Assembly (NCBI RefSeq): GCF_026965535.1 | Contig: NZ_CP114039.1 | Span: 6,758,001-6,822,000, forward strand | Source of the DNA: Corallococcus sp. NCRR | GTDB lineage: Bacteria; Myxococcota; Myxococcia; Myxococcales; Myxococcaceae | Length of the DNA: 64,000 nucleotides | Direction: 5' to 3' | Shown: positions 11,140 to 16,593 of the stretch, piece by piece | Numbering within the stretch: the first letter of the stretch is position 1 | Layout of the letters: each line of letters starts with the position of its first letter | The notes under the pieces: model-generated | Seen by the model: only the letters and a program-made list of their open reading frames with translations | Databases searched by the model: none | What the model was told of the DNA's origin: nothing | Position numbers and translations under genes: made by a program

Positions 11140-11206
11140 AATCGCTGGGGGAATGAGGCTCTGGAGATTCGCGGACATTGAGAGGTTGGAGTACATTCCA
11201 TCCTCC

Positions 11207-11617
11207 ATGTCGAGCGCTCCGCAGCCCGTCTCCATGATCGATGGCCTCCGTTGGATCCCTGTCGCCGGGGACAGCATGTGGCCGTCTTTGCGTGCGGGGG
11301 ACGTGGCGGAGGTGGAGCCGCTGGTGGAGGCGCCGCGCCCGGGTGAGGTGGTGCTGGCGCGCTTCGAGTCCTCGCTGGTGCTGCACCGGGTTCGCTGGTG
11401 CGACGGCAGCTTCTGCGCGCTTCGCGGGGACAATGGCGGCATGGAAGATCCGCCGCTGCCTCTCATCCGTATCCTGGGACGCGCGCGGCGTGTGCGCCGG
11501 GGCGGGACGCTGTTGGAGATGGACCGTTGGGACGTGGGGCCGCGGCGGCTGGGCCGCTGGCGCGCGACGCTGAAGCGCCAGGTGGCCGCGTGGCTGGGAA
11601 GGACGGTCCGCGCATGA
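11207..11617 (+). CDS. Soluble S26-type (Sec11/SipW-like) peptidase domain protein
   Basis: 136 residues from the ATG at 11207; an in-frame ATG at 11153 would add 18. The sequence follows the Sec11/SipW branch of the S26 peptidases: GDSMWPSL gives the nucleophile Ser23, LVLHRV gives His60 in place of the Lys used by ordinary signal peptidase I, and LRGDNGGMED supplies the acidic residues Asp75 and Asp81. Unlike signal peptidases it has no transmembrane segment, so it should act in the cytoplasm. It is the first gene of a coupled operon (ATGA overlap with the PqqD gene). Processing of the 51-residue peptide encoded downstream is an attractive guess. Confidence 0.8.
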   Translation: MSSAPQPVSMIDGLRWIPVAGDSMWPSLRAGDVAEVEPLVEAPRPGEVVLARFESSLVLHRVRWCDGSFCALRGDNGGMEDPPLPLIRILGRARRVRRGGTLLEMDRWDVGPRRLGRWRATLKRQVAAWLGRTVRA

Positions 11618-11928
11618 GCTTTCAGGAAGGCAGCGTTCCCCGGCGGCGTCTGGGGACCTCGGGGGAGGGCTTCGGCGCGGACTTCCTGGTGCTGGACGCG
11701 GAGGGGCGCACGCTGCGCGGGCTCAACCCCACGGCGGCGCGCATCTGGGCGCTGTGCGACGGACAGCGCACGGCCCGGGCGGTGGCGGAGCAGGTGGCTT
11801 CCGAGTTTTCGACCGACGTCGGTCCGGTGCTGACCGACACGCTGCGCTTCCTGGAGGAGCTTCAGCGGCGGGGCCTGTTGGACGAAGTGCGCGCGCCGGC
11901 CGGTGCCGCGCCTCTGGAGGAAACATGA
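11614..11928 (+). CDS. PqqD-like peptide-binding (RRE) protein
   Basis: 104 residues, about the size of PqqD proteins. The core (residues 20-90) has the typical order: beta-strands around FLVLDAEGRTLRGLNPTAAR, the IWALCDGQRTARAVAEQV helix-turn region, and a closing amphipathic helix (DTLRFLEELQRRGLL). PqqD-family domains bind leader peptides of ribosomally made peptides and present them to modifying enzymes. Its start overlaps the peptidase stop and its stop overlaps the next start, so it is embedded in the operon. Confidence 0.85.
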   Translation: MSFQEGSVPRRRLGTSGEGFGADFLVLDAEGRTLRGLNPTAARIWALCDGQRTARAVAEQVASEFSTDVGPVLTDTLRFLEELQRRGLLDEVRAPAGAAPLEET

Positions 11929-12536
11929 TGCGGGCGCTCGTGGCCGTGCTGGCGGGTGCAATGGTGCTGTCGGCGTGCTCGGAAGGGGTGTCCCCCCTGC
12001 CGCCGCCTTCGGCCGTGAAGCCGGGGCAGGGCAGCGGTTCCTCCGCCCCCGTGGATCCGACGGACGTGCTGGCCGGTGGTGGGAGCGTGGCCCGGCCGCC
12101 GCCTTCGGCCCCCGCGGGCGAAGAGCCGCCCCCGGAAGAGCCGCCTCCAGAAGAGCCGCCTCCAGAAGAGCCGCCTCCGGAAGAAGAGCCGCCGCCGGCG
12201 CCGCTGCCGCCCCCGACCGGGAGCGCGGAGGTGGTGGGCGCGGGTTCGGAGCCCACGCCCCTGTCCCGGGTACAGCAGGTGGACGTGGACTTCGTGGTGA
12301 GCGGCGTGCGGAACAAGGGCCTGGTGGACGTGGAGTTCATCGCGCCGGGCGGCCGTCCGTATGAGAAGCGGAGCGCGACGGTGGTGGCGCCGCCGGAGGA
12401 GACGCGGACGCTGCGCTACTCGCTGCCGGTGGCGGGCACGCCGGTGTCCATGACGCGCATGACGGGCACCTGGCAGGTGCGCTTCTTCCTGGATGGGGCG
12501 CAGCTGGCCGCCACGTCCTTCACCCTGGAGCCGTGA
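11925..12536 (+). CDS. Lipoprotein with Pro/Glu repeat linker
   Basis: 203 residues. Signal peptide with lipobox (MVLSAC, Cys18). Residues about 45-95 form a low-complexity Pro/Glu linker built on EEPPP units. The C-terminal domain (about 100-203) is beta-rich and ends FTLEP; VDFVVSGVRNKGLVDVEFIAPGG (quoted in parts: VDFVVSGVRNKG, VDVEFIAPGG) resembles an Ig-like or adhesin fold. A second ATG directly follows the first (11928). The linker would let the domain reach away from the membrane. It is cotranslated with the PqqD gene and precedes the large secreted protein. Confidence 0.82.
   Translation: MMRALVAVLAGAMVLSACSEGVSPLPPPSAVKPGQGSGSSAPVDPTDVLAGGGSVARPPPSAPAGEEPPPEEPPPEEPPPEEPPPEEEPPPAPLPPPTGSAEVVGAGSEPTPLSRVQQVDVDFVVSGVRNKGLVDVEFIAPGGRPYEKRSATVVAPPEETRTLRYSLPVAGTPVSMTRMTGTWQVRFFLDGAQLAATSFTLEP
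12120..12179 (+). repeat. Four tandem 15-bp units coding EEPPP
   Basis: Four units of GAAGAGCCGCC(C/T)CC(G/A) run head to tail and are followed by a partial, altered unit. Units 2 and 3 are identical. Being a multiple of three, changes in copy number would lengthen or shorten the Pro/Glu linker of the lipoprotein without breaking the frame. Confidence 0.9.
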
Positions 12537-12549
12537 CGTGAGGCACGCC

Positions 12550-14022
12550 ATGAACGTCCGCATCCTCGCGCTCTTCGCCGTGCTGCTGCCCGCGGTGGGC
12601 TTCTCCCAGACGACCTGGACCGTGCGCCCCGTCCCCTCCGCCGGAGAGACCGTCGCGCGCGTGGTGATGGAGGACGCGTCCGACCTCGTCCTGGAGGTGA
12701 CGAACACGAGCACGTCCACCAACGACTCCCGCCTGTCGGAGGTGTCCTTCGTCCTGCCGGCGGGCTACCAGCTGCTGGGGGGCCTGCCCGCGGAGGAGAA
12801 CCCGCACTGGAAGGTCGAGTACATCGACGCCAACGAGCGGCGCATCACCTTCCAGTCCACGCGGGGCTGCGTGGACGAGGGGCGGGGCCTGGCCAACAAC
12901 GAGTCCGCGCGCTTCGTGCTGAGCGTGGTGGGCCCGGCCAACCGCAACACCGACAGCACCACCGAACGCCTGGTGGCGGGGACGTACGCCCGCGACCAGT
13001 GCGACGGCAGGAGCTACACGTACAACGTCAACGCCATGACCGCCTGGACGCGGAGCATCCTGGCCGCGAACGTGACGCTGGCGCCGCGGGTGCTGGCGGT
13101 CAACGGCTCCACCGTGGCGCGCGTGGTGGTGGAGAACCGCGGCACCGGCGCGGCCACCGTGTCCGTGGACAACCCCACCTCCACGAGCAACGTGCCCCTC
13201 ACCACCGTGACCAAGGACGGCGGCAGGTCCGTGGCGGTGCGCGCCGCGGGTGTCTTCGCGGTCAATCTGAGGCCCACCGCCGCCGGCGCCGTGGCCGCGC
13301 GCGTCCGGGCGCGCACGAGCACCGCGAACGCGCCGCTGGTGGACTCGCCCCTGGCGAACGTGGGCAACCTGGTCGCGGCGGCGGACATGGACATCGTAGA
13401 CGCGTTCAGCGCGGAGCAGGTGACGCTGCGCCTGATCGTGTTCAACACGTCCACCACGAACACGTACACGCAGGTGCGCCCGCGCGCGCCGGTGCTGCTG
13501 GGCAGCGCGACGGCGTCGCTCGTGTCCGGGCCGTCGCCGGAGAGCGTGGCGCAGCTGGCCCCGGGCGCCTCCGCCCAGTTCACCTGGCGCTACCAGGTGT
13601 CGGGCTCGCCCGGCGCCAGCTACCAGTTCCAGGCGCAGGTGGACGGGACGCTCAACGGTTCGTCGGTGGCGGGGGACCCGGTCACGGCTCGCAAGGGCCG
13701 CATCGTGGAGCACCGCGTGCGGCTGAGCCAGGAGACGGTGTCCACGGCGGCCACGTCCCTGACGGTGGCGTACACGGTGCAGAACCGGGGCACGCTGCCC
13801 ATCTACGAGGTGAAGCTGTTCAAGCCCGCGGTGAACTACTTCGCGGTGGCCGCGTCGGGGCCGCAGCCGTTCGGCGACTGGAACGTCTACACGGACGCGA
13901 CCGGCTACCTCTGGGAGTCGGAGTCCGGCATCCCGGTGGGTGGCGAGGCCACCTTCCGCATCACCTATTCGGGCTTCACCGCCGTCCTCTCGGACACGGC
14001 GTTCGCCACCGGTTGGAGCTGA
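12550..14022 (+). CDS. N-terminal part of the large secreted protein (Ig-like domains)
   Basis: 490 codons of open frame. A signal peptide (about residues 1-19, ending GFSQ) is followed by several beta-rich, Thr/Ser/Val-dense modules with the look of CARDB or Ig-like domains, e.g. VARVVVENRGTGAATVSV and LTVAYTVQNRGTLPIYEV. Two cysteines (GCVDEG, DQCDGR) may form one disulfide. A stand-alone product would end in GWS at the first frame break. The next frame supplies a fibronectin-III-like module (GSVTLTWDNPF ... GTTYFYRVFNAD). Confidence 0.75.
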   Translation: MNVRILALFAVLLPAVGFSQTTWTVRPVPSAGETVARVVMEDASDLVLEVTNTSTSTNDSRLSEVSFVLPAGYQLLGGLPAEENPHWKVEYIDANERRITFQSTRGCVDEGRGLANNESARFVLSVVGPANRNTDSTTERLVAGTYARDQCDGRSYTYNVNAMTAWTRSILAANVTLAPRVLAVNGSTVARVVVENRGTGAATVSVDNPTSTSNVPLTTVTKDGGRSVAVRAAGVFAVNLRPTAAGAVAARVRARTSTANAPLVDSPLANVGNLVAAADMDIVDAFSAEQVTLRLIVFNTSTTNTYTQVRPRAPVLLGSATASLVSGPSPESVAQLAPGASAQFTWRYQVSGSPGASYQFQAQVDGTLNGSSVAGDPVTARKGRIVEHRVRLSQETVSTAATSLTVAYTVQNRGTLPIYEVKLFKPAVNYFAVAASGPQPFGDWNVYTDATGYLWESESGIPVGGEATFRITYSGFTAVLSDTAFATGWS

Positions 14023-14503
14023 ACCAGGGCTGGAACGATCCGCGCATCCGCGTGGAGGCGACGATGACGCTGCTCGCGGTCACCGCTGCGCCGGACGTGG
14101 AGCGCCTCACGGGCGTGGCCCGCGACGGCAGCGTGACGCTCACGTGGGACAACCCCTTCAACCACGGCGGCACCCTGGTGCTGCGCGCGGTGGGGGCGAC
14201 GCCCGACACCGCGCCGACGAGCGGCGTGCACTACGCGCCAGGCGAGGCGCTGGGCAACGCGACGGTGGCCTACGTGGACGAGTTCAGCTCCGCGTCGTCC
14301 GTCACGGACACGGCGGTGACGAACGGCACGACGTACTTCTACCGCGTGTTCAACGCGGATGATCAGCTGCGGTACGGGCCGGGCAACCAGCCCACCTCGG
14401 TGGGCCTGCTGGCCACGCCCCGGGCGCGCGTGGCGGGCAACCCGCTGTGGTGCTACTCGGTGGGCCTGGCCTCGCGGCACCAGCCCATCACGGAGCTGGG
14501 CGT

Positions 14504-15577
14504 GGCATCTTCTCCTCCTTCAACGATTCGGTGGTGGGCGTCCTCACGAACACCGCGAACCCGTCCGAGGACGGCGCCGAGCGGTTCCGGCCCGTGAAGA
14601 TGCCGAGCACGATTGGCAGCCGCTTCCCGGTGGTGCCGCTGCTGGGCCGGCCCGGACAGCAGTGGCTCGTCGTGGGCGACGAGTCCGGTGTGCCGGCGGT
14701 GATCAACGCGGCCACGGGCGAGTTCCTCTGGAAGAACACCACGCTGGGCCTGGGGCGCATCAGCTCGTTCCCGGTGACGCAGCTGCTCGACTACGCGAAC
14801 CCGGAGTACCGGACGACGTACTCGAACGTGGACCTGGCCATCTTCGCCACGCGCAACTCGTCCGCGCAGAACCAGGTGGTCGCGCTGAACGCGGCCACCG
14901 GCGCGCTCATCTGGCGCTACCGGCCCGGGGACCTGGGCATGGTGACCGGCAGCATGCTGGTGGACTACTCGAAGAACCGGCTCTACGTGGCGACGGCCTC
15001 TGGCGTGAGCACGGACACTCTGCGCGTGCTCAACAGCCTCACGGGCGCGGAGGTCGCGCGGCTGGAGCTGGGCGACCTGGAGTACGGCGTGGTCCGCAAC
15101 GCCACGAGCAACCAGATCCTGGTCACCGCCAATGACGGCCGGGTGTACGGCGTGAGTCCGGACAACCATTCCAGGGTCTGGACGGCCGCCGTGCGGTCCG
15201 GCACGGCGCAGGCGTTCACCCACTTCGCGAGGCCCCAGGGCCGGGGCTTCATCGTGGCCACGGAGGACAACAAGGTCGAGCGCTACGAGGTGGTCGAGGC
15301 GAACGGGACCGGTGTGCCCGAGCTGAAGTGGTCAGCGCCCATCCCGGCGCGCCCCACCGGTCTGTTCACCCTCAACCTGGGTGGCTCGGTGCGCGTCTAC
15401 GTTGGAAGCGCGGACGGCAAGGTGCACCAACTGGATGGCGAACTGGGGACCGAGACCGGGCAGGTGACCGTGGGCCCGGCGCAGAGGCTCTACACGCCGA
15501 CCATCGACCACACCGTGAACCGGTTGCATGTCGGTACCGAGGATGGTCGTATCTGTGCCTTCCCGGTGCCCTTCTAG
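14504..15577 (+). CDS. C-terminal part of the large secreted protein (PQQ-type beta-propeller)
   Basis: About 357 residues of seven- or eight-bladed propeller sequence. Blades carry the PQQ-repeat pattern of a Gly-Xaa-(Leu/Ile)-Xaa-Trp strand end: ATGEFLWKN, ATGALIWRY, NHSRVWTA, and VYVGSADGKVHQLDG. Such propellers bind cofactors or act as protein scaffolds. An internal ATG (14600) could start a separate product, but without a signal peptide. The stop TAG is shared with the AGGGAGG ribosome-binding site of the small peptide gene. Confidence 0.75.
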   Translation, partial: GIFSSFNDSVVGVLTNTANPSEDGAERFRPVKMPSTIGSRFPVVPLLGRPGQQWLVVGDESGVPAVINAATGEFLWKNTTLGLGRISSFPVTQLLDYANPEYRTTYSNVDLAIFATRNSSAQNQVVALNAATGALIWRYRPGDLGMVTGSMLVDYSKNRLYVATASGVSTDTLRVLNSLTGAEVARLELGDLEYGVVRNATSNQILVTANDGRVYGVSPDNHSRVWTAAVRSGTAQAFTHFARPQGRGFIVATEDNKVERYEVVEANGTGVPELKWSAPIPARPTGLFTLNLGGSVRVYVGSADGKVHQLDGELGTETGQVTVGPAQRLYTPTIDHTVNRLHVGTEDGRICAFPVPF

Positions 15578-15589
15578 GGAGGCCATCAC

Positions 15590-15745
15590 GTGAGACAACG
15601 CCCTTCACAGCCTCCCTCGGTACCGAAGCCGCCGGCCGCGCCCGCCGTGTACGTGCCTCCCGCCATCCTGTGGGAGCAGCCCTTCGTCGCGCTGGCGCAG
15701 CTGTCCATGTGCACCATCCCCGGCGAATCGGAGTGCGTGCCGTGA
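15590..15745 (+). CDS. 51-residue peptide, candidate modified-peptide precursor
   Basis: A short GTG-started frame with a strong AGGGAGG site 7 bases upstream; its TGA overlaps the GTG of the kinase gene, so it is surely translated. The N-half is Pro/Ala-rich. Residues 21-29 read YVPPAILWE, giving a YxxPxI motif like the RRE-binding YxxP motif of lasso-peptide leaders. The C-terminal part (from about residue 33) is short and contains Ser39, Cys41, Thr42, Pro44, Ser47 and Cys49 before a final Val-Pro. No signal peptide or membrane segment. Recognition by the PqqD-like protein and trimming by the S26 domain are inferred. Confidence 0.75.
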   Translation: MRQRPSQPPSVPKPPAAPAVYVPPAILWEQPFVALAQLSMCTIPGESECVP

Positions 15746-16593
15746 ACGGTGGGGACCCCCTGCCGGGTCCCCGTGACGGCGCGCTGCGGATCACCCTGGC
15801 CGGGTGGACCGTGGCGCTCGATGTGGAGGATGACGCGCTCGCCGGTCCGCTCCGGCGCGTGTTCGGCGCGTTCCTCGCTCCGGAGGCCGTGGCTCCCGAT
15901 GCCCGGCTGGTGATGCGCAACCCTCCCAGCCCCCAGGCTCCGCCCACCGTGCAGGAGCTGCCCCGGCTGACGCCTGGTGACTCGGGGACGCTGCGCGTGG
16001 AGGGCGCCGGGTACTCCGCGGTGCTCTCCGCGGACCGGTGCCACGCGGCGGTCATCGGATCCGGGCGGTACCCGGTGGAGAACGTGCTCAAGGTGATGCT
16101 CGCGTCCGCGCTGGCGAGGCGTGGCGGGCTGCTCATCCACGGCGTGGGGCTGGTGCACGAGGGCCGGGCCGCGCTCTTCGTCGGGCACTCCGGCGCGGGC
16201 AAGAGCACCCTGGGCGGGCTGTGGCGCGAGGCGGGCGGGACGGTGCTCGCGGATGAGCTGGTCGCGGTGTGGCCCGTGGAAGGCGGTGGGTGGCGCGCGG
16301 CGGGGACGCCCTGGAACGTGCCGGTCCGGACCGCCGAGGCGTCGCTCGTTGCCGTAGGCACACTGGGCTGGGACGCGGCCTCGCGGTGGGAGGCGCAGGG
16401 GGCGGGGGAGGTGGCCCGCGTGCTGCTGCTGAACGCGCTGTTGCCCGAGCCCACGCCCTCGGGCCGGGGAGCGCTGGTGGGCGCGGCCGGACGCGTGCTG
16501 TCGTCCGTGGAGACCGCCCGGCTCGTGTTCGCGCGGGACGCCAGCGCCGCGGAGGTGGTGCGGGCGCGGCTGGAGGCAGCGAGACCGCGATAG
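15742..16593 (+). CDS. HprK-like P-loop kinase
   Basis: 283 residues from a GTG overlapping the peptide gene. The central P-loop GHSGAGKST (residues 148-156) with the preceding GGLLIHGVGLVHEGRAALF strand and the following ADELVAV (general acid/base Asp region) matches the C-terminal catalytic domain of HPr kinase/phosphorylase and its relatives. The true HprK N-terminal domain and HPr are absent. Related kinases in lasso-peptide clusters phosphorylate a Ser of the precursor; Ser39, Thr42 or Ser47 of the adjoining peptide are possible targets (inference). Confidence 0.85.
   Translation: MNGGDPLPGPRDGALRITLAGWTVALDVEDDALAGPLRRVFGAFLAPEAVAPDARLVMRNPPSPQAPPTVQELPRLTPGDSGTLRVEGAGYSAVLSADRCHAAVIGSGRYPVENVLKVMLASALARRGGLLIHGVGLVHEGRAALFVGHSGAGKSTLGGLWREAGGTVLADELVAVWPVEGGGWRAAGTPWNVPVRTAEASLVAVGTLGWDAASRWEAQGAGEVARVLLLNALLPEPTPSGRGALVGAAGRVLSSVETARLVFARDASAAEVVRARLEAARPR

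Follow-up and report, generated by a model that had tools for sequence, protein, structure and literature searches.

An overlooked and conserved short gene ahead of an HprK-like kinase gene in Corallococcus and its likeness to precursors of linear polyphosphorylated peptides

The DNA analysed here, referred to as the window, is a stretch of 64,000 nucleotides from Corallococcus sp. NCRR. By Pfam match and position, its genes of interest run in the order PS decarboxylase, HisS, an S24/S26 protease (PF00717), a PqqD-type protein (PF05402), a lipoprotein and a propeller protein (PF13360), followed by a short peptide gene, an HprK-like kinase gene, MiaA (PF01715) and DUF308 (Table 1). The peptide gene had been proposed in an original prediction as an unlisted 51-codon frame, and the frame proved to be exactly as described: it starts at GTG, ends at TGA (15743-15745), is preceded by an AGGGAGG site with a spacing of 7 nt, and runs into the kinase start. 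Its translation, VRQRPSQPPSVPKPPAAPAVYVPPAILWEQPFVALAQLSMCTIPGESECVP, carries Y21, P24, I26, W28, S39, C41, T42, S47 and C49 at the positions that had been claimed for them. The stop codon of the peptide gene and the kinase GTG at 15742 share a 4-nt overlap (GTGA), which suggests that the two genes are translationally coupled.

Table 1. Features of the peptide gene and its operon (positions in the window)
Feature	Position	Strand	Evidence or remark
S24/S26 protease (archaeal/SipW-type signal peptidase-like), predicted leader peptidase	11153..11617	+	PF00717, E 3e-8
PqqD-type discrete RRE	11614..11928	+	PF05402, E 6e-15; mapped on LppB
Lipoprotein, Pro-rich, operon-conserved, without known family	11928..12536	+	Lipobox LSAC; translation; synteny
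Large secreted protein, C-terminal beta-propeller	12553..15577	+	PF13360; DNA alignment with L002
Shine-Dalgarno AGGGAGG	15576..15582	+	Read directly; overlaps stop codon of upstream gene (15575-15577)
Precursor-like peptide gene	15590..15745	+	51 codons, GTG start; homologues found
Residues 1-20, Pro-rich variable N-terminus	15590..15649	+	Alignment
Residues 21-36, conserved leader YVPPAILWEQPFVALA	15650..15697	+	Comparison with LPP consensus (PMC13381572)
Residues 37-51, predicted released core QLSMCTIPGESECVP	15698..15742	+	Ser/Thr at +3 and two Cys across versions
HprK-like kinase, P-loop GHSGAGKST	15742..16593	+	Model pLDDT 94.5; HprK and PEPCK fold matches

HMM searches found no Pfam or NCBIfam model for the peptide, and its profile gave only chance matches when compared with PDB sequences. 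A profile search detected homologues in 54 of 96 Myxococcaceae genomes, to which a second profile added one genome (G128) from another family of the same order; the Corallococcus genome itself has a single copy. A scan with one genome per species, on whose named contigs our statements about species rest, gave 11 orthologues in Corallococcus, Myxococcus and Pyxidicoccus. Their alignment has 23 invariant residues; the N-terminal 20 residues differ in both sequence and length, whereas the C-terminal 31 are nearly fixed among close relatives. Pairwise dN/dS on these 31 codons was noisy, ranging from 0.15 to above 1, since a stretch so rich in G+C leaves room for few synonymous changes. We therefore counted the variable codon positions, which made up 17 of the 31 third positions and 12 of the 62 first and second ones (Fisher p 0.0008).

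Many open frames arise in high-G+C DNA, and this one might be spurious. The conservation of its amino acids over many genera, the concentration of variation at third positions and the fixed place of the frame in the operon leave this explanation virtually no chance, and we rejected it on the conservation of the peptide. The original prediction was to be given up if related genomes had no conserved short frame here, and such a frame is there. Judged by its sequence conservation, the frame at 15590-15745 is a real, overlooked and long-conserved gene.

Among 32 distinct versions of the peptide, numbered from a predicted cut after residue 36, every tail has exactly two cysteines; the motif begins with Tyr in 31 and with Trp in the remaining one; and an A/G-x-A spacing is kept in 31, with Ala at position -3 in 31 and Gly in one, and Ala or Thr at -1. 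Ser or Thr stands at +3 in 31 versions, the exception having a one-residue insertion ahead of its Ser. Among the residues highlighted at the outset, Y21, P24, W28, S39 and the two tail cysteines are conserved family-wide, whereas S47 and T42 show no conservation in the family alignment.

The surroundings of the gene are stable. In nearly all loci examined the peptide sits between the same neighbours, and the order S26-PqqD-lipoprotein-propeller-peptide-HprK is kept in distant Myxococcaceae, with parts lost only in the most distant loci. Even in a relative of another family (L089), where sequence identity is low, the genes follow one another as S26, PqqD, peptide, large protein, kinase. When the two hit lists were compared, all 53 genomes with a strong kinase homologue (E below 1e-40) also had the peptide, and the only genome of the family with the peptide but a weak kinase match (G087) is fragmented. 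Peptide and kinase lie on separate contigs in one further genome (G050). The propeller protein, about 1007 aa long in relatives, is here split into three frames, since two single nucleotides, one near 14003 and one near 14503, are deleted relative to the close relative L002. These frameshifts may come from sequencing error or from recent damage, and part of the operon may be non-functional in the genome as assembled.

The products of three neighbouring genes have counterparts in the pathway for linear polyphosphorylated peptides (LPPs) encoded by the lpp cluster of P. alginolyticus (Popov et al., Nat Commun 2026; PMC13381572). The protease exceeds the PF00717 cut-off, weakly matches TIGR02228 (archaeal signal peptidase I), and has a Ser41, His78 and Asp93 set, invariant in all aligned members, that resembles the catalytic residues S29/H68/D93 of LppS (PMC13381572). 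The RRE has conserved L37, N38, D75 and F79, the equivalents of L32, N33, D70 and F74, with which LppB contacts the leader (PMC13381572). Compared with a few PDB chains, the RRE profile matched the lasso RRE TbiB1 best and LppB third, and its fit to LppB is no better than that to TbiB1 or PqqD. In one genome (G050; L050:1882-1986, PqqD 2147-2413) the leader Tyr is replaced by Trp together with a change of the RRE Asp to Glu, a single case that might represent co-variation of a contact pair. The kinase is hard to recognise from its sequence (NCBIfam HprK-related models reach E values of about 1e-4), but its P-loop is nearly invariant in the alignment and its structural model matches the HprK/PEPCK superfamily.

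In our view, the gene product is probably a precursor from which an LPP-like pathway makes a linear, phosphorylated RiPP-like peptide with two cysteines. In the scheme that we infer for binding, phosphorylation, cutting, export and role, the PqqD-type RRE would bind the leader via Y21-x-x-P24-x-I26, the predicted contacts, and the HprK-like kinase, presumably coupled to the precursor in translation, would phosphorylate S39, the predicted phosphosite of a core that also carries C41 and C49. The signal-peptidase-like protease would then cut after A36, in the predicted A34-L35-A36 site, to release QLSMCTIPGESECVP, in which a disulfide may join the two cysteines. Signal peptidases usually prefer A-x-A at -3/-1, so cleavage after A36 is our best guess. 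The leader-core layout first proposed for the overlooked gene is supported, and the zone in which the cut had been placed (residues 32-38) contains this best candidate site, A34-L35-A36|Q37.

The same conservation could be explained differently, by an intracellular phospho-switch in which S39 is phosphorylated much as HprK phosphorylates HPr, with the PqqD protein as partner and no mature peptide released. Leader and tail are conserved as one unit across genera in a stable gene order, as would be expected of a regulatory protein more than of a bioactive peptide that is secreted, and the operon lacks an exporter. Against a switch of this kind stand a signal-peptidase-type protease that has a complete catalytic set and belongs to this operon and those of relatives, and an A-x-A site at the very point where LPP leaders are cut; we regard it as unlikely. 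Another possibility is that phosphorylation is only an intermediate and that the decisive step is a different modification, such as covalent attachment, a disulfide or a metal site of the cysteines on the lipoprotein or propeller. Two cysteines are present in 32 of 32 distinct tails and in most tails of more distant HprK-linked peptides, and the LPP authors themselves describe polyphosphate as an intermediate (PMC13381572); still, we identified nothing in the operon that would catalyse such a step, and this explanation appears distinctly improbable.

As to the function of a released, phosphorylated peptide, a core that hardly changes and is passed on together with the adjacent genes points to a physiological role rather than to an antibiotic shaped by an arms race. 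Dozens of species share the gene order and the tail, and a lipoprotein and a secreted propeller protein are encoded in the operon; for these reasons a housekeeping peptide that serves at the surface or in signalling is a more likely product than an antibiotic. It would perhaps act with the lipoprotein and the propeller protein at the cell surface.

The original prediction had called the leader motif lasso-like. This holds for the motif itself, YxxPxI being an RRE-binding motif common to lasso and LPP leaders, but not for the class of product, as neither a cyclase nor a B2 protease accompanies the gene. A lasso precursor could in principle be served in trans by a cyclase and a B2 protease encoded elsewhere in the genome, and both the YxxPxI motif with its PqqD-type RRE and the best PDB match of the RRE profile, TbiB1, are as expected of lasso systems. 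Yet genes matching PF13471 and PF00733 are absent from the operon, the nearest Asn_synthase matches in the genome are > 500 kb away, and the sole PF13471 match over cut-off is a partial stretch, far away. The peptide itself fits poorly: counted from Q37, residues 7-9 are I, P and G, with no well-fitting Asp or Glu, E46 being residue 10, and the penultimate leader position has no conserved Thr. We therefore give a lasso product only a very slight chance. The PF13471 search of the organism's own genome found no convincing B2 protease, its matches being partial and weak. Lasso machinery acting in trans was rejected when own-genome searches for PF13471, PF00733 and PF05402 gave no linked set.

Similar short frames accompany more distant HprK-like genes in Myxococcota. 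Among 41 loci chosen solely for holding such a gene, 24 had a short frame with a [YW]xxPx[ILV] motif, 20-75 residues from the frame end, ending next to the kinase start, compared with 17 of 731 control frames (Fisher p 7e-24, a value that is only indicative because the loci are partly related and the controls, other long frames from the same DNA, include non-genes). Two or more cysteines were found in 22 of 25 tails. Ser or Thr stood at +3 in 9 of 25 peptides and at +4 in 11 of 25; a preference for +3 is therefore not clear, and we do not extend the phosphosite prediction to these distant peptides. Several have Ser-x-Cys at +3/+5 (e.g., EEALMSICKGG), comparable to S39-x-C41.

Further families can be seen among these loci. 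A second one, with a consensus near Y-x-P-P-x-V-R-S-E-[RK]-[IL]-[IL]-V-x-[DN]-L-F and then a tail with cysteines, ends beside a different HprK-like gene, and in most cases an S26-like match follows directly downstream (L091, L092, L093, L095, L097, L100, L101, L103, L114, L116, L121 and L126). A third precedes HprK-like genes, has [ML]xICKGG or MLSMCKTGG and a Gly-rich C-terminus ending in GGGS or AAGS, and lies near a PqqD gene in some cases (L104, L105, L106, L107 and L127). The only other PqqD-domain gene of the Corallococcus genome (L134; G000:C1:1449548-1452745) lies beside two near-identical tandem short frames with MYIQSEIVRVSASSDKCTCSNGMVIASTTVSAE, possibly another precursor-like pair. 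It is conceivable, if somewhat doubtful, that Myxococcota have an undescribed, phylum-wide class of short YxxPx[ILV], Cys-tailed peptides tied to HprK-like kinases and signal-peptidase-like proteases. The gene described here would then be the Myxococcaceae housekeeping branch, and its product, not of toxin type, would be a phosphorylated peptide of the surface or of signalling that is inherited vertically and acts together with the lipoprotein and propeller.

A search of open-licence papers found none on a myxobacterial equivalent. If dozens of myxobacteria have an equivalent set of enzymes together with a conserved precursor, the logic of kinase, RRE and signal peptidase would reach beyond Bacillota into another phylum. 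Since the set has a single, vertically inherited and nearly invariant product, simple knock-outs in Myxococcus xanthus or Corallococcus could test what such phosphopeptides do biologically. Short precursor genes precede many HprK-like genes and may be absent from annotations.

Several known systems share parts with this operon. The HPr-rel-A and SynChlorMet cassettes (TIGR04352/TIGR04353 and TIGR04248/TIGR04249) likewise pair an HprK-related with a PqqD-related protein, but the scores here are far below the curated cut-offs (20.1 of 200 bits for TIGR04352 and 20.9 of 35 bits for TIGR04353), and the operon has no radical SAM genes. PQQ biosynthesis shares the PqqD fold, but the PqqD score is 32.6 bits against an equivalog cut-off of 46 bits, and other Pqq genes are absent from the operon. 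Lasso systems share the YxxPxL-type leader and the discrete RRE; here a signal-peptidase-type protease takes the place of B2, and the operon has no macrolactam cyclase. Phosphorylated lasso peptides of the paeninodin type are also alike in combining an RRE and a [Y/W]xxP leader with a Ser-phosphorylating HprK-like kinase, but their macrolactam cyclase and B2 protease are missing here.

Of the systems described so far, the LPP pathway (PMC13381572) comes closest, rather than lasso peptides. Its core enzymes are SpI, a discrete RRE and an HprK-like kinase (PMC13381572), and here, too, we found a discrete RRE, an HprK-like kinase and an archaeal-type signal peptidase with Ser/His/Asp, with no cyclase needed. 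LPP precursors follow the consensus YxxPxVLxHQxIxFETxxS, with cutting after -1 and phosphorylation at S3, and the motif Px9Fx[T/A], that is, Phe at -3 (PMC13381572). In this numbering the conserved leader YVPPAILWEQPFVALA runs from Y-16 through P-13, I-11, L-10, Q-7 and A-3 to A-1 and is followed by Q, L and S+3. It fits the [Y/W]xxPx[V/I/L] leader motif, and Y-16, P-13, I/V-11, L-10, Q-7, the small residue at -1 and S/T+3 all coincide without a gap. The differences are that F-3 is replaced by Ala (Phe stands at -5), so that Phe at -3 is lacking while -1 is Ala or Thr as in LPPs, that H-8 is replaced by Glu, and that -9 is Trp.

LPP cores are variable and longer, whereas the core here is conserved, has 15 residues and carries two cysteines; LPP clusters are patchy, whereas gene order here is vertically kept. 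The operon contains a lipoprotein and a propeller protein but no LppN or LppD: Pfam searches found no nucleotidyltransferase or MsbA-like exporter among its genes or their neighbours, and a Mla-type ABC locus 10 kb upstream is not LppD-like. LPPs have been stated to be restricted to Bacillota (PMC13381572), and the host here belongs to Myxococcota. We have not filed the peptide as an LPP, since it lacks Phe-3, its operon lacks the exporter and the NTP transferase, and the RRE profile scores TbiB1 above LppB. From the sequence comparisons, we call the myxobacterial set an LPP-like variant, which probably works as the LPP pathway does.
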